Shown: one piece after another, positions 1,120-6,366 of the stretch
Layout of the letters: each line of letters opens with the position of its first letter
Numbering within the stretch: position 1 is the stretch's first letter
Source of the DNA: Emticicia aquatilis
Lineage (GTDB): Bacteria > Bacteroidota > Bacteroidia > Cytophagales > Spirosomataceae
DNA length: 62,028 bases
Reading direction: 5' to 3'
Assembly (NCBI RefSeq): GCF_014644295.1
Contig: NZ_BMKK01000018.1
Coordinates: 1 to 62,028 of the forward strand
Notes under the pieces: generated by a model
What the model was told of the DNA's origin: nothing
What the model saw: only the letters and a program-made list of their open reading frames with translations
The model's database searches: none
Made by a program: the position numbers and the translations under genes

Positions 1120-2520
1120 ATGTCAGCACCAAAATCATTATTTGACAAAGTATGGGATGCCCACGTTGTTCGTAACATCGAAGACGGGCCCGACGTTTTA
1201 TTCATCGACCGCCACTTCATTCACGAAGTAACGAGTCCAGTTGCCTTTTTGGGTCTCGAAAGTCGTGGTTTGGGTGTACTTTTCCCAAATCGTACATTCG
1301 CAACTGCCGACCATAATACACCAACAATCAACCAACATTTACCAGTTCAAGACCCACTTTCGGCCAATCAGTTGAAAGCTTTGGAAACAAACTCGGCTAA
1401 ATATGGCATTTCTCACTGGGGATTAGGCCACGCAAAGAATGGTATCGTTCACGTAGTTGGGCCTGAAAATGGTATCACACTTCCAGGAATGACCATCGTT
1501 TGTGGCGACTCTCATACTTCTACGCACGGTGCTTTTGGTGCAATTGCCTTCGGAATTGGTACTTCTGAGGTAGAAATGGTACTTTCTTCGCAATGTATCA
1601 TGCAGCCAAAACCAAAGAAAATGCGTGTAACAATCAATGGTAAATTGGGCAAAGGCGTACTACCAAAAGACGTAACACTCTTTATTATTTCAAAGCTTTC
1701 GGCAGCAGGTGCAACGGGTTATTTCTGCGAATATGCAGGCGAAGTTTTTGAAAATATGAGCATGGAAGGACGTATGACGGTTTGTAATATGTCAATCGAA
1801 ATGGGTGCGAGAGGTGGCATGATTGCTCCTGACGAAACTACTTTCGCTTACTTGAAAGGCCGTGAGCAAGCTCCAAAAGGCGAAGCTTGGGAAAAAGCCT
1901 TAGCTTACTGGAAAACCCTCAAAACCGACGAAGGAACAGTTTTCGATATTGAATATACTTTCGATGCTGCTGAAATTGAGCCACAAATCACTTACGGAAC
2001 AAACCCAGGTCTCGGAACAGGTATTTCTCAAAATATCCCACAAGCTGCCAATGTATTGGATGGTGCTGCTTCTTATGCAAAATCATTGAATTACATGGGC
2101 TTTGCAGAAAACGACCAAATCATTGGTAAACCAATTGATTATGTTTTCTTGGGAAGCTGCACAAACGGTCGTATCGAAGACTTCCGTGCTTTTGCTTCAA
2201 TCGTGAAAGGACGCAAAAAAGCGGATAACGTAACGGCATGGTTAGTACCAGGTTCGCACATCGTAGAATCTCAAATCAAAGAAGAAGGGATTTTGGATAT
2301 TTTGACTGAAGCTGGTTTTGCTCTTCGTCAGCCAGGTTGCTCGGCGTGTTTGGCGATGAACGATGATAAAATTCCTGCTGGAAAATACGCAGTTTCAACA
2401 TCAAACCGAAACTTTGAAGGCCGCCAAGGACCAGGTGCAAGAACGCTTTTGGCCTCTCCGTTAGTGGCAGCAGCCGCCGCGGTTACAGGAAAAGTTACTG
2501 ACCCAAGAGAGTTTTTATAA
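1120..2520 (+). CDS. leuC: 3-isopropylmalate dehydratase large subunit
   Basis: LeuC isomerises 2-isopropylmalate to 3-isopropylmalate with LeuD, the second step of leucine synthesis, in the cytoplasm. The 466-residue length is typical for the bacterial enzyme. The three cysteines that hold the 4Fe-4S cluster are visible: Cys347 in GSCTNGR and Cys407/Cys410 in PGCSAC. The substrate-site stretch [20 protein letters not shown] is also intact. It is the first gene of leuC-leuD-leuA-(insert)-leuB. The 86-base leader shows no clear attenuator or leader peptide. It is separated from leuD by a repeat-bearing spacer of about 100 bases. Confidence 0.97.
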
Positions 2521-2535
2521 TCAATTTTAAAATTC

Positions 2536-2603
2536 ACCACGAAAGATACTTAAAATACTAAGTTCACCTCTGTGAAACTACGTGTTCTCCGTGCTTCCGT
2601 GGT
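2536..2603. repeat. CACNNAG-type inverted repeat in the leuC-leuD spacer
   Basis: The spacer is bounded by imperfect inverted arms of 10 bases, ACCACGAAAG at 2536-2545 and CTTCCGTGGT at 2594-2603 (9 of 10 pair). Read on the minus strand the right half is a run of CACGGAAG, CACGGAG, CACGTAG and CACAGAG units. These units match the repeats that flank the GxxExxY gene at 4827-5286. The element is transcribed within the operon and could fold in RNA. No open frame is present. Confidence 0.75.
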
Positions 2604-2621
2604 AAAAAATATTCTAAAAAA

Positions 2622-3218
2622 ATGGCTTACGATAAGTTCACTATATTAAAAAGCACCGCAGTTCCGATGCCAATCGAAAATGTGGATACTGACCAAATTA
2701 TTCCTGCACGCTTCTTGAAAGCAACAAGCAGAGTAGATTTCGACAAAAACCTATTCAGAGACTGGCGTTATAACGCTGACGATACTCCGAAAGCAGATTT
2801 CGTATTAAATAACCCTATCTACTCTGGAAAAATCCTTGTAGGTGGCCGTAACTTCGGTAGTGGTTCAAGCCGTGAACACGCCGCTTGGGCAATCTACGAC
2901 TACGGTTTCCGTTGTGTAGTGTCGAGTTTCTTTGCTGATATCTTCAAAGGAAATGCCCTAAACATCGGTATTCTTCCAGTACAAGTTAGTCCAGAGTTTT
3001 TGCATAAAATCTTCACGGCTATCGAGGCAGACCCAAATACTGAACTTGAAGTAAACCTTCCTGCCCAAACTATTACGATTTTGGCAACGGGTGAGTCGGA
3101 GAGTTTCGGCATAAACGGCTATAAAAAGAACAACATGATTAACGGCTACGATGATATTGATTATCTCCAGTCTATGAAGTCAGAGATTGCTACTTTTGCT
3201 GATAAGAGTCTTTATTAA
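2622..3218 (+). CDS. leuD: 3-isopropylmalate dehydratase small subunit
   Basis: Small subunit that completes the active site of the LeuCD isomerase. The 198-residue length is normal. The swivelling-domain signature is seen as [14 protein letters not shown] near the N-terminus and [16 protein letters not shown] around residues 75-90. The start at 2622 follows an A-rich tract and gives the expected N-terminus. It follows leuC on the same strand and its stop overlaps the left arm of the dyad that precedes leuA, so it is expected to be co-transcribed with both. Confidence 0.96.
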
Positions 3219-3302
3219 TTTTGAATGATTAAATGAATGAATGAGTGAATGGGTTAAACCATTTTATTATTCTATCATTCTATCATTCGCACATTCAAAA
3301 TT
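3217..3302. repeat. dyad of tandem GAATGA-type words between leuD and leuA
   Basis: Perfect 11-base outer arms AATTTTGAATG (3217-3227) and CATTCAAAATT (3292-3302) enclose tandem GAATGA words on the left and repeated CTATCATT words on the right, which are roughly each other's complement. The left arm overlaps the leuD stop codon. An upstream in-frame ATG of leuA at 3241 falls inside this dyad and is not expected to be the real start. Confidence 0.65.
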
Positions 3303-3306
3303 GAAG

Positions 3307-4818
3307 ATGCGACACATTGAAATAATGGATACAACGCTCCGTGATGGTGAACAAACCAGCGGAGTATCTTTTTCAGCTACCGAAAAACTGGCAATTGCCC
3401 AGATGCTACTCACCGAAGTAAAGGTGGATAGAATCGAGGTGGCTTCGGCTCGTGTTTCGGAAGGCGAATTATTGGCAGTACAAAAAATCACAAATTGGGC
3501 AAAAGAACACGGTTTACTTGATAAAGTAGAGGTTTTGACTTTTGTTGATGGCGAAGCTTCAATCAACTGGATGCAACAAGCAGGGGCGAAAGTAATGAAT
3601 TTATTGACCAAAGGCTCGATGAATCATCTGACGCACCAGTTGAAAAAAACTCCCGAACAACACTTTGGCGAAATTGCCCAAGTTATTTCTTTGGCAAAAT
3701 CAAGAGGTATCGAAGCAAATGTTTATCTCGAAGATTGGAGTAATGGAATGCGAAATTCACAAGAATACGTTTTCCAATTTCTCGATTTTCTGAGTACACA
3801 GCCAATCAAACGGGTGCTTTTGCCCGATACATTGGGGGTTTTGACACCTTACGAAACCTACGATTTTATCAAGGCTATTGTAGAGCGTTATCCAAATCAG
3901 CATTTCGATTTTCATGCTCATAATGACTATGATTTAAGCGTAGCCAACGTCATGGAGTCCATTCGTGCGGGTGTACAAGGTTTGCATTTGACCGTAAATG
4001 GTATGGGCGAACGCACGGGAAATGCTCCATTATCGAGTGTTATTGCGGTTATCAACGATTTCATTCCCGATGTAACTACTTCGGTTGTTGAGCAGTCGCT
4101 TTACACGGTCAGTAAGATTGTAGAAACCTTTTCGGGTTTTGGAATCCCTGTTAATAAACCTGTTATCGGTGAAAACGTATTTACGCAAACGGCGGGTATC
4201 CATGCCGACGGCGATAATAAAAATAATCTCTATTTCAATGATTTGATGCCTGAGCGTTTCGGACGTACTCGAAAATATGCTCTCGGCAAAACATCAGGCA
4301 AGGCCAATATTGAGAAAAATCTCCAAGAAATTGGTATTTCTCTTTCGCCCGAAGAAATCAAGAAAGTTACGCAAAGAATCATCGAACTCGGCGACCGCAA
4401 GGAAGTTGTTACGAAAGAAGATTTGCCATACATTATCTCCGATGTGCTTGATAGTGAGGCAGTTGCCGAGCGTGTGCATGTGCTTAATTATGTGATGACT
4501 CACTCGAAAAATCTTCGCCCTTCGGCCACTTTAATGGTAAAAATCGACGAGGATATTTTTGAAGAAAACGCCCAAGGCGATGGACAATACGATGCGTTTA
4601 TGAATGCCTTGAAGAAGATTTATGTGAAGAAAAAACAAAGTCTTCCAACGCTGACAGACTATGCCGTAAGGATTCCACCGGGAGGAAAAACCGATGCACT
4701 TTGTGAAACCATCATTAGTTGGGAATACAACGGAAAAAGTTTCAAAACTCGTGGTTTAGATTCAGACCAAACTGTTTCAGCAATCAAAGCTACTCAGAAG
4801 ATGCTGAATTTGATATAG
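3307..4818 (+). CDS. leuA: 2-isopropylmalate synthase-like (LeuA/CimA family)
   Basis: Condenses acetyl-CoA with 2-oxoisovalerate to open leucine synthesis. I place the start at 3307, giving MRHIEIMDTTLRDGEQ, the conserved TIM-barrel opening; the longer in-frame start at 3241 adds 22 residues encoded by an intergenic repeat. The 503-residue product has the HMGL-like barrel with metal-binding HAHNDYD and the NGMGERTGNAPL motif, then a C-terminal LeuA-type regulatory domain from about residue 370 onward, consistent with feedback control. The family also includes (R)-citramalate synthases, and substrate choice cannot be settled by eye. Its place among leuC, leuD and leuB favours the leucine role. 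Confidence 0.88.
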   Translation: MRHIEIMDTTLRDGEQTSGVSFSATEKLAIAQMLLTEVKVDRIEVASARVSEGELLAVQKITNWAKEHGLLDKVEVLTFVDGEASINWMQQAGAKVMNLLTKGSMNHLTHQLKKTPEQHFGEIAQVISLAKSRGIEANVYLEDWSNGMRNSQEYVFQFLDFLSTQPIKRVLLPDTLGVLTPYETYDFIKAIVERYPNQHFDFHAHNDYDLSVANVMESIRAGVQGLHLTVNGMGERTGNAPLSSVIAVINDFIPDVTTSVVEQSLYTVSKIVETFSGFGIPVNKPVIGENVFTQTAGIHADGDNKNNLYFNDLMPERFGRTRKYALGKTSGKANIEKNLQEIGISLSPEEIKKVTQRIIELGDRKEVVTKEDLPYIISDVLDSEAVAERVHVLNYVMTHSKNLRPSATLMVKIDEDIFEENAQGDGQYDAFMNALKKIYVKKKQSLPTLTDYAVRIPPGGKTDALCETIISWEYNGKSFKTRGLDSDQTVSAIKATQKMLNLI

Positions 4819-4826
4819 TTTTTATT

Positions 4827-4873
4827 TTTTAACCACGGAGATTCACGGAGTTATGGCACTGAGTTACACTGAG
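4827..4873. repeat. left flanking repeat of the GxxExxY cassette
   Basis: A 14-base arm TTTTAACCACGGAG (4827-4840) is the exact reverse complement of 5273-5286. Four heptamer units follow one another: CACGGAG at 4834 and 4844, CACTGAG at 4857 and 4867. The start codon of the GxxExxY gene (4853) lies inside this array, so its last two units are coding. Confidence 0.85.
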
Positions 4874-5239
4874 AATAATGAGTTAACAGGAGTAATATTG
4901 AGAGAAGCATATTCTGTTCATACTGCTTTGGGAGCTGGTTTGCTTGAAAGTGCGTATAAAGAGTGCCTATTTTATAAACTTCAAAAAGCTGGGTTATTTG
5001 TTGAAAAAGAAAAAGCAATGCCATTGGTTTTTGAAGATGTAAAGCTCGACTGTGGTTATAGAATTGACTTATTGGTCGAAAATAAAATTGTTTTAGAATT
5101 AAAATCAGTTGAGGCGTTGAATGATGTTCATTCTGCTCAGGTACTGACTTATATGAGGCTTGGAAAGTTTAAAATTGGGTATTTGATGAATTTTAATGTA
5201 ACAAGCCTTAAAAATGGAATAAAAAGATTCGTATTATAA
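4853..5239 (+). CDS. GxxExxY protein, PD-(D/E)XK nuclease-like
   Basis: A 128-residue cytoplasmic protein of the GxxExxY family (PDDEXK_3-like). The naming motif is Gly29-Glu32-Tyr35 in GAGLLESAY, and a nuclease-like core follows with Asp72 in YRIDLL and Glu82-Leu-Lys84 in VLELKS. Those residues match the D-ExK metal site of the PD-(D/E)XK fold, but cleavage activity in this family is not established as far as I know. The only ATG that includes the conserved N-terminal helix is at 4853, so residues 2-7 are encoded by CACTGAG repeat units. The gene sits between leuA and leuB, which are otherwise in a single operon, and is bracketed by 14-base inverted repeats. This looks like an insertion that kept the operon's orientation and reading direction. 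Confidence 0.88.
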   Translation: MALSYTENNELTGVILREAYSVHTALGAGLLESAYKECLFYKLQKAGLFVEKEKAMPLVFEDVKLDCGYRIDLLVENKIVLELKSVEALNDVHSAQVLTYMRLGKFKIGYLMNFNVTSLKNGIKRFVL

Positions 5240-5243
5240 ACCC

Positions 5244-5286
5244 CGTGAAACTCTGTGTTTAACTCAGTGTAACTCCGTGGTTAAAA
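5244..5286. repeat. right flanking repeat of the GxxExxY cassette
   Basis: Heptamers CTCTGTG (5251-5257), CTCAGTG (5263-5269) and CTCCGTG (5273-5279) are reverse complements of CACNGAG. The outer 14 bases 5273-5286 pair perfectly with 4827-4840. The array begins a few bases after the GxxExxY stop codon and ends 9 bases before the leuB start codon. Confidence 0.85.
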
Positions 5287-5295
5287 CAATAAAAA

Positions 5296-6366
5296 ATGAA
5301 AAAACATATTCTAATCGTCCCAGGTGACGGAATTGGGCAGGAAGTAACTGCCGTAGGTAAAAAAGTAGTAGAGAAAATCGCTGCAAAATTTGGTCATGAA
5401 TTTACTTATGACGAAGCACTCATCGGTCATGCTGCCATCGAAGCAACTGGCGACCCGCTTCCAGAAGAAACACTCGTAAAAATGAAAGCCTCTGATGCCG
5501 TTTTATTCGGTGCAGTTGGTCATCCAAAATACGACAATGACCCTTCGGCAAAAGTTCGTCCAGAACAAGGTTTATTGAAAATGCGTAAAGAATTAGGTCT
5601 TTATGCCAACCTTCGACCAATCAAACTTTTTGATGAATTATTAGAAGCATCGAGCATCAAACCAGAGCTATTGAAAGGTGCAGATATTTTGTTCTTCCGT
5701 GAATTAACAGGTGATGTTTATTTTGGAAAACGTGAGCGTATCGACGAAGGAAATACCGCTTACGACACAATGATTTATTCAAAATACGAAGTTGAGCGTA
5801 TCGCCCGCAAGGCATTTGATGCGGCAATGACTCGTGGCAAAAAATTGATGTCGGTTGATAAAGCAAACGTACTCGAAAGTAGCCGTTTATGGCGTGAAGT
5901 GGTGCTTGAAGTAGCAAAAGATTACCCAGAAGTACAACTCGAACACCAATTTGTTGACGCAGCTGCCATGCTTTTAATCAAAGACCCTCGTAAATTTGAT
6001 GTAGTTGTAACAGGAAATCTTTTCGGAGATATTTTGACTGACGAAGCCTCTCAAATCGCTGGTTCGATGGGAATGTTGGCTTCAGCTTCAATCGGTGATA
6101 GCACGGGCGTTTACGAGCCAATTCACGGTTCTGCTCACGATATTACTGGAAAAGGAGTTGCGAATCCATTGGCGTCGATTCTATCGGCAGCTTTAATGTT
6201 GGATATTTCGTTTGGCTTAAAAGCTGAATCAGAGGCGATTATTGCAGCCGTTGATGCCACTTTGAAAGCTGGTTACCGCACAGGTGATATTGCTGATGCT
6301 TCTACTCCGAAAAATATGATTTTGGGAACAGATGCAATGGGCGAGCAAATCTTGTCAAGAATATAA
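5296..6366 (+). CDS. leuB: 3-isopropylmalate dehydrogenase
   Basis: Oxidatively decarboxylates 3-isopropylmalate to 2-oxoisocaproate using NAD+, the third leucine step. At 356 residues it is full length for the family. Visible motifs are the opening IVPGDGIGQEV, the substrate-loop LLKMRKELGLYANLRP, the catalytic-Lys region SVDKANVLESSRLWR, the GNLFGDILTDEASQ metal-ligand stretch, and the nucleotide-site EPIHGSAHDITGKGVANP. It closes the leu cluster and is followed within 20 bases by a strong hairpin. The start codon lies 9 bases after the right-hand repeat of the GxxExxY cassette, so the cassette supplies its whole leader. Confidence 0.97.
   Translation: MKKHILIVPGDGIGQEVTAVGKKVVEKIAAKFGHEFTYDEALIGHAAIEATGDPLPEETLVKMKASDAVLFGAVGHPKYDNDPSAKVRPEQGLLKMRKELGLYANLRPIKLFDELLEASSIKPELLKGADILFFRELTGDVYFGKRERIDEGNTAYDTMIYSKYEVERIARKAFDAAMTRGKKLMSVDKANVLESSRLWREVVLEVAKDYPEVQLEHQFVDAAAMLLIKDPRKFDVVVTGNLFGDILTDEASQIAGSMGMLASASIGDSTGVYEPIHGSAHDITGKGVANPLASILSAALMLDISFGLKAESEAIIAAVDATLKAGYRTGDIADASTPKNMILGTDAMGEQILSRI

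Follow-up and report, generated by a model that had tools for sequence, protein, structure and literature searches.

The leucine operon of Emticicia aquatilis carries, between leuA and leuB, a small gene of the GxxExxY family packaged in inverted arrays of a seven-base unit, and packages of this kind recur at roughly half of the GxxExxY loci that we examined. Together with the gene-less copies of the repeats that are dispersed alongside, this recurrence points to a very small mobile element of a kind not described before. Our best reading, to which we give a probability of about 0.6, is that it is a minimal selfish cassette, in which a Cas4/lambda-exonuclease-like PD-(D/E)XK nuclease is encoded between inverted arrays of putative cognate heptamers, and that the cassette spreads or replaces itself in a manner resembling REPtrons in its working yet unrelated to them.

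The stretch of DNA analysed (the window, 62,028 nucleotides) contains the following features around the cassette.

2536..2603, strand not assigned: degenerate palindrome without a gene, built of the cassette's type of unit, in the leuC–leuD spacer (motif and spacer comparison).
3307..4818, + strand: leuA/cimA-type synthase, left neighbour (open reading frame; no model above cut-off in the family scan; orthologous matches in 22 genomes including its own).
4827..4873, + strand: left array, TTTTAAC followed by CACGGAG at 4834 and 4844 and CACTGAG at 4857 and 4867, the units facing the cassette interior.
4853..5239, + strand: GxxExxY gene, 128 amino acids, PD-(D/E)XK nuclease family (open reading frame, family profiles, conserved active-site columns, AlphaFold2 model).
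5241..5286, − strand: right array, facing the opposite way to the left one, with units at 5251, 5263 and 5273 between a degenerate CCCCGTG (5241-5247) and the outer GTTAAAA.
5296..6366, + strand: leuB, right neighbour (TIGR00169, 459 bits; cut-off 353).

The gene lies between the halves of a perfect 14-base inverted repeat, TTTTAACCACGGAG (4827-4840) and CTCCGTGGTTAAAA (5273-5286), which agrees base for base in position and sequence with the one described in an earlier, sequence-only reading of this DNA. That reading had also described CACNGAG arrays pointing inward, which is what we find, with four units on the left (+) and three plus a degenerate one on the right (−), and it had placed the start codon within the left array: the ATG indeed lies there, and the two CACTGAG units with their intervening bases supply codons 2-7 (ALSYTE). 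The window has 21 occurrences of CACNGAG where 10.74 are expected, a count reached in none of 100 shuffles, and 7 of the 21 fall within the 450 bases of the cassette. The assignment of the flanks to leuA and leuB stands for leuB which, like leuC and leuD, scores above its family cut-off. The left neighbour is matched by both 2-isopropylmalate synthase and citramalate synthase models, CimA being the best and all of them under cut-off; we retained the name leuA for it nonetheless. A palindrome of GAATGA-like units in the leuD–leuA spacer (3221-3302) represents a further unit type in the leu operon, and the same spacer in relatives holds still other palindromes by eye.

Profile searches bore out the proposal that the gene encodes a PD-(D/E)XK-like GxxExxY protein of 128 residues, which scored 139.2 bits against the TIGR04256 'GxxExxY' profile (cut-off 35) and 135.5 bits against PF13366 (cut-off 22), the sole Pfam match at 0.001. 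In an alignment of 78 proteins G27, G29, E32, Y35, D72, K84, Q96, Y100, G109, N113 and F114 are invariant and E82 is nearly so (at least 90% of sequences), a pattern that has the look of an intact PD-(D/E)XK active site; within D...ExK...QxxxY, we take QxxxY to be the RecB-type motif. The AlphaFold2 model (pLDDT 93.8, pTM 0.87) was compared with the PDB using Foldseek, and the first 15 matches include Cas4 SSO0001, lambda exonuclease, LHK-Exo and RecE, with E values of 4e-3 to 2e-2 for Cas4 SSO0001 and lambda exonuclease, 4e-3 for the best match overall and none below 1e-3. The best match in the defence library was a weak one to the PADLOC Cas4 profile (E 0.003), and a profile search of PDB sequences returned a single, insignificant match. 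The predicted fold is nearest to Cas4 and lambda exonuclease and, together with the conserved D...ExK...QxxxY residues, would place the protein among the RecB/Cas4/lambda-exonuclease-type PD-(D/E)XK enzymes. It differs from these in being far smaller and encoded within repeats, and from Cas4 in having no invariant or near-invariant cysteine for an iron-sulphur cluster across the 78 sequences. Searched with the window protein, 50,697 phage records yielded nothing at 1e-5 and 72,556 plasmid records yielded eight matches, and the protein therefore looks mainly chromosomal.

Recurrence of the arrangement was determined across 198 Bacteroidota genomes, each at least 90% complete, 101 of which carry GxxExxY genes (99 with a match above the family cut-off), with a maximum of 12 copies per genome. 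Two sets of loci were used: 93 Bacteroidota loci, comprising the highest-scoring 90 of at least 150 plus the three of the E. aquatilis genome, the window locus among them, with two places near contig ends (G099:C1:126 and G041:C52:41) left out; and a second, named set drawn from the best 80 of 562 relatives, of which the 77 with full flanks were used. Defining a two-sided array as at least two clustered inward C[AG]CNNA[GT] units on each side of the gene, we found such arrays at 47 of the 93 loci and 37 of the 77, as against 0 of 66 and 0 of 401 shifted windows, respectively. Inverted-arm scores, obtained from alignments of the 220-base upstream flank to the reverse-complemented 220-base downstream flank, had a median of 33 at the 93 loci compared with a cross-genome null mean of 19.6; 64 loci were at or above the 95% point of the null and 36 above its 99% point, which none of the 66 shifted windows exceeded. 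In the named set 34 of 77 loci reached the 95% point, as did 1 of 401 shifted windows. A motif-free count of gapped 7-mers present in both arms yielded CNCAAAG at 58 of 168 loci, CACANAG at 55, CNCAGAG at 42 and CGCANAG at 41, each of them in 0 of 207 control windows. Since two-sided arrays are frequent at GxxExxY loci and absent from the control windows, the arrays can be taken to belong to the gene family. This disposes of a local or CACNGAG-only feature: CACNGAG, proposed as the repeat unit, is correct at the window locus, but the unit is broader across loci (C-R-C-N-N-A-G/T).

About half of the GxxExxY loci lack two-sided arrays of this definition, many having units of a different kind or an arm that has decayed, and some showing nothing. 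Outside the strict Bacteroidota two-sided arrays were found in Treponema (L181), Planctomycetota (L206), Melioribacter (L179) and Ignavibacteria (L235, L245), names that come mostly from titles of metagenome-assembled genomes (MAGs); at the Methylobacter locus L239 the inverted repeat is strong (score 76) and the unit count is below the threshold, and two-sided arrays were not found at the Acidobacteria (L226), Chlorobiaceae (L234) and Chloroherpeton (L222) loci. A further locus, L198, is titled as a Rhizobium MAG and is probably a misbinned Flavobacterium contig, because its flanks resemble Flavobacterium loci. The flanks of L191 and L241 are 100% identical to those of L105 and L085; both loci were kept in the 37-of-77 and 168-locus counts and dropped from the protein tree described below.

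We typed the units of every locus with at least three to four clustered units, leaving untyped loci outside the tree tests, and mapped the types onto a tree of 106 GxxExxY proteins. Unit position 2 (A/G) required 14 changes compared with 32.9 when shuffled, position 5 (G/A) 23 compared with 35.5, and position 7 (G/T) 5 compared with 9.7. When pairs more than 75% identical were removed (65 loci), the corresponding figures were 12 against 19.7, 15 against 21.6 and 5 against 7.7; the signal at position 5 was not significant in a smaller first locus set. Of 16 pairs of loci sharing a genome, 14 differed clearly in their units (distance of at least 0.67), and genome-wide base composition is therefore unlikely to be the cause of unit type. 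On these comparisons the unit type is inherited together with the GxxExxY protein, a signal equally expected from co-inheritance as one cassette or from recognition. The idea that gene and repeat form a single cassette is thus upheld both by its recurrence in the two locus sets and by the way in which unit type follows protein phylogeny.

The 6.75-Mb E. aquatilis genome has 29 matches to a two-unit CACNGAG array pattern and one to a reversed control pattern. It contains three GxxExxY genes including that of the window, and no CACNGAG was found within 1.5 kb of the other two, which lie in inverted arrays of different motifs, CGCAGAAA-like and ACGCTGAT-like: the gene on contig C6 has inverted CCCGCAAAAATCGCTGAAAAACGCAGA arrays (by eye; arm alignment score 42) and that on C12 inverted GGCACGCTGAT...AACGCTGAT arrays (by eye; score 33). 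All 15 CACNGAG array places beyond the window cassette were inspected. Eleven are gene-less palindromes of 65-104 bases located between open reading frames of at least 100 codons, one of which runs 7 bases into a palindrome at its end; their predicted folding energies range from −24.9 to −55.3 kcal/mol, as values without a shuffled comparison. Three are half arrays, one of them (L015) overlapping a 378-codon frame open from stop to stop, and the last (L008) lies inside a 433-codon open frame. The sequence-only reading had held that arrays equally common away from GxxExxY genes would speak against it. This is half the case, in that most array places in this genome are gene-free, but we do not count it as a refutation because gene-less copies are the expected look of a non-autonomous derivative.

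Gene-less arrays were then counted in all 198 genomes with a three-unit CRCNRAG pattern, the counts taking in the arms of gene-bearing cassettes. There were 1608 matches against 107 for the reversed control, and 1547 of them fall in the 101 genomes with GxxExxY genes (a mean of 15.3 per genome, compared with 0.63 in the others), the control being split 86 to 21; within-family permutation gave p = 0.0002 for the association. By subtraction, 1433 of 1494 arrays remain in GxxExxY genomes when genome G084 is omitted. The commonest array family of G084 is MITE-like, with terminal repeats around a one-directional array at the 19 places inspected; this family (L304-L323), whose terminal repeats are AGGGTRGTTCYAAAAAC, appears to have captured a one-directional CRC array and then spread copies of it. 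Against the association, three-unit CRCNRAG arrays are missing from 31 GxxExxY genomes, six genomes without the gene carry at least three, and eight GxxExxY genomes without IVP genes (a four-helix-bundle family, TIGR02436) average only 1.0 array. IVP gene counts correlate with arrays at 0.50, and the partial correlation is 0.19 as against 0.44 for GxxExxY; for RAYT counts, with GxxExxY and IVP included, it is 0.02 as against 0.43 for GxxExxY. The proposal of a repeat-spreading element thus holds to the extent that gene-less arrays are dispersed almost only in GxxExxY genomes, and falls short in that the abundant G084 family is carried by a MITE-like element.

A second pattern, CRCNGAT, has 240 of its 308 matches in GxxExxY genomes, and T-type arrays occur in 7 of the 9 genomes whose genes include a T-type one, compared with 10 of 34 others (p = 0.018), counts that include the genes' own flanks. 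Between CAC/CGC array type and the resident genes sampled, the Spearman correlation was 0.30 (p = 0.09, 32 genomes), and it was 0.07 in the 10 genomes in which at least half of the genes were sampled. Across the genomes compared, solo arrays match the unit type of the resident gene weakly.

IVP genes occur in 153 of the 198 genomes and are also found in inverted arms: 16 of 30 loci (L140-L169) were at or above the 95% point of the null and 8 above the 99% point, compared with 0 of 60 shifted windows above the latter. Their arrays consist of other short units, for example TTAGTGATTAGTG and GGTTCTGAG, and two such places, L024 and L031, are the leuC–leuD and leuA–leuB spacers of relatives. Two-sided CRC arrays were found at 1 of the 30 IVP loci as against 47 of 93 GxxExxY loci, and IVP genes were rejected as owners of the CRC arrays. 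RAYT genes were likewise rejected as movers of the arrays, given the partial correlation of 0.02 and two-sided CRC arrays at 0 of 24 loci inspected among all RAYT matches; several of the 24 have long repeats of a different sort. Among the RAYT-like genes (PF01797) of Bacteroidota, those at L259-L262 (G220, GCCCTTTAGGGCGACATATGGGTAG type), L254 (in E. aquatilis itself) and L269-L270 (G135) have their own repeats in long inverted arrays. In G092 a GxxExxY gene with CTGTGATT-type inverted units lies close to a RAYT-like gene, between genes that look by eye like type I restriction genes (L268/L138).

The leuA–leuB spacer was followed through the 22 genomes of the family, E. aquatilis (G000) included, that have a full-length leuA match, ten of them in the genus. 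Within the genus the CACNGAG GxxExxY cassette occupies the spacer in G000, G001, G002, G005 and G008, and an Emticicia MAG (L193) has a cassette at the same site. In G003 the spacer contains a different GxxExxY gene (44% identical) with CACAATG/CACAATT units, and in G009 an IVP gene (TIGR02436, 129 bits; cut-off 24) in arrays of yet other units. The nearest relative by LeuA (G010, 96%) has an IVP-like frame interrupted by a stop, G007 has an 82-base remnant of which 27 bases match the IVP gene at 96%, and no recognisable array was found in the spacer of G006. Outside the genus, nine of 11 readable spacers are at most 200 bases long, two of these nine having palindromes of other units, and the remaining two are 420 and 888 bases.

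A second site, upstream of trpS (TIGR00233), was analysed in the 30 closest of 121 Flavobacterium genomes. GxxExxY genes were present in 12 (seven one way round and five the other), 3 had paired arrays without a gene, and 14 had no paired arrays; the remaining one, L279, has the look of a gene-less hairpin with NN in its centre and was left unclassed and out of the trpS tree. Cassette orientation changes once on a tree of cassette proteins (20 entries, 18 different; support 83/76), which adds eight named loci, some possibly from the same genomes, and four times among the 12 gene-bearing loci on a partly resolved trpS DNA tree. This difference suggests that cassettes at a fixed site are swapped or rewritten without regard to the host gene beside them. 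Many cassettes are nevertheless kept vertically at orthologous places. At four of the trpS loci (L278, L282, L283, L294) we noticed nested palindromes, with a CACAGATT palindrome in the loop of CRCAAAG arms (by eye), and in the L294 spacer several different palindromes are apparently nested (by eye).

Comparison of leuA–leuB spacers for an empty site, as the sequence-only reading had advised, did reveal cassette-free spacers in relatives, but a clean insertion boundary was not among the results. No clean empty allele or target-site duplication was recognised in the leuA–leuB, trpS and solo-element comparisons, duplication being judged by eye; the cassette-free spacers (27 nucleotides in L041, 72 in L034, and G007 at one solo element) are too diverged to fix a junction.

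Of the known systems, the cassette most invites comparison with REPtrons, in which a small gene is likewise bracketed by inverted short repeats, with dispersed gene-less palindromes in the same genomes. It differs in that the GxxExxY gene encodes a PD-(D/E)XK nuclease matched only by PF13366 rather than a HUH/Y1 transposase (PF01797), in that each arm is a row of several heptamers instead of a single imperfect hairpin, and in that we recognised different repeats, or none, at the RAYT loci inspected in the same genomes. Moreover, the REPtron definition given in PMC3733652 includes a GTAG tetranucleotide at one repeat end, whereas the arms of the window cassette end in TTTTAACCACGGAG and CTCCGTGGTTAAAA, without this tag. 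Free-standing homing endonucleases, including the PD-(D/E)XK enzyme I-Bth0305I (rank 31 in the Foldseek search with the GxxExxY model), resemble the cassette as small nuclease genes that recurrently occupy or are replaced at fixed sites; they differ in that the GxxExxY gene here was not seen in an intron or intein and in that its repeats both accompany the gene and exist alone. The intervening sequences (IVSs) of 23S rRNA also contain a small open reading frame in an inverted-repeat element, and in Coxiella, according to PMC4990558, tandem heptamers (GACAGAT) lie upstream of the S23p start codon and RNase III excises the IVS. IVP sequences hold the leuA–leuB site in two relatives of E. aquatilis. 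The GxxExxY protein is nonetheless not S23/IVP, its units are different, its site lies between protein-coding genes rather than in rRNA, and Rfam gave no match at 2400-5500. Because the Coxiella heptamer layout, as PMC4990558 describes it, matches that of the cassette, the analogy hints that rRNA intervening sequences may belong to the same class of element. The open-access literature provided neither a function for TIGR04256/PF13366 nor a description of a GxxExxY repeat cassette, subscription papers and preprints being outside the scope of the search; none of the papers found to name the family or its models is apparently about the family, and PMC8934634 names GxxExxY as the neighbour of a reverse transcriptase.

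The main rival to the cassette reading is that the arrays are host palindromic repeats spread by another route (RAYT, an insertion sequence or slippage at palindromes), which shelter small genes, the GxxExxY genes being passengers that survive well within palindromes. We regard this as unlikely, although it is kept alive by the IVP genes, which occupy comparable inverted arrays made of other units, so that more than one kind of gene can sit there; the MITE-like family of G084 and the weak cognate match between arrays and resident genes also lend it weight. On the other side, unit type tracks the GxxExxY protein, the CRC arrays that bracket 47 of 93 GxxExxY loci are almost missing from IVP loci (1 of 30) and were found at none of the 24 RAYT loci, several of which have long REPs of other kinds, and RAYT counts have no residual correlation with arrays.

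Alternatively, the arrays might act as an RNA stem with the gene in its loop, as in the 23S IVS cut by RNase III, and so regulate or excise a message rather than serve as DNA sites. The predicted folding of the 11 gene-less palindromes (without a shuffled comparison), the Coxiella heptamers before the S23p start (PMC4990558) and the start codon within the left arm of the window cassette are in keeping with this idea. Yet among leuA–leuB orthologues the fourth base differs between units of facing arms while the rest is mostly kept (by eye, uncounted), which favours a kept motif over exact pairing, and this, together with the cassette's presence at trpS in either orientation relative to trpS and the lack of an Rfam match at 2400-5500, makes an RNA role improbable in our estimation. 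Less probable still is a defence or toxin-type nuclease with the arrays as operator or anti-toxin-like sites, to which we assign very little weight: the predicted fold is Cas4-like and the G092 gene (L268) sits between type I restriction genes as read by eye, but the defence library gives only weak Cas4 profile matches (best E = 0.003), the phage records hold no match to the window protein at 1e-5, and the gene is on its own in the leu operon, or in other places next to trpS.

Returning to the selfish cassette, we infer that the GxxExxY protein binds and cuts the repeats and is responsible for their movement. In the scheme that we propose, the cognate heptamer would be C-R-C-N-R-A-G, or C-R-C-N-G-A-T in some lineages; the nuclease would bind these heptamers, probably either several of them together or in the form of an extruded hairpin, and would cut or trim the DNA there. 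The break or end would be repaired from a cassette copy or a gene-less array, and this repair would copy arrays to new places or rewrite them. On this scheme the arrays without a gene would be non-autonomous derivatives, still responsive to the GxxExxY protein. A broader proposal, which we offer tentatively and would not yet favour, is that heptamer-like inverted arrays form a general bacterial 'gene-in-a-palindrome' class, in which the unrelated GxxExxY and IVP genes are independent partners with unit families of their own, 23S IVSs are members that landed in rRNA, and the GxxExxY nuclease copies or rewrites its own arrays by repair, without a transposase.

If the cassette reading is true, many genes annotated as 'hypothetical nuclease' and many unexplained intergenic palindromes would turn out to be one system, with a defined partner and a seven-base motif. 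It would constitute a second, unrelated solution to the REP/RAYT problem, with a nuclease keeping dispersed palindromes, and the origin of 23S rRNA intervening sequences would perhaps be explained as well.
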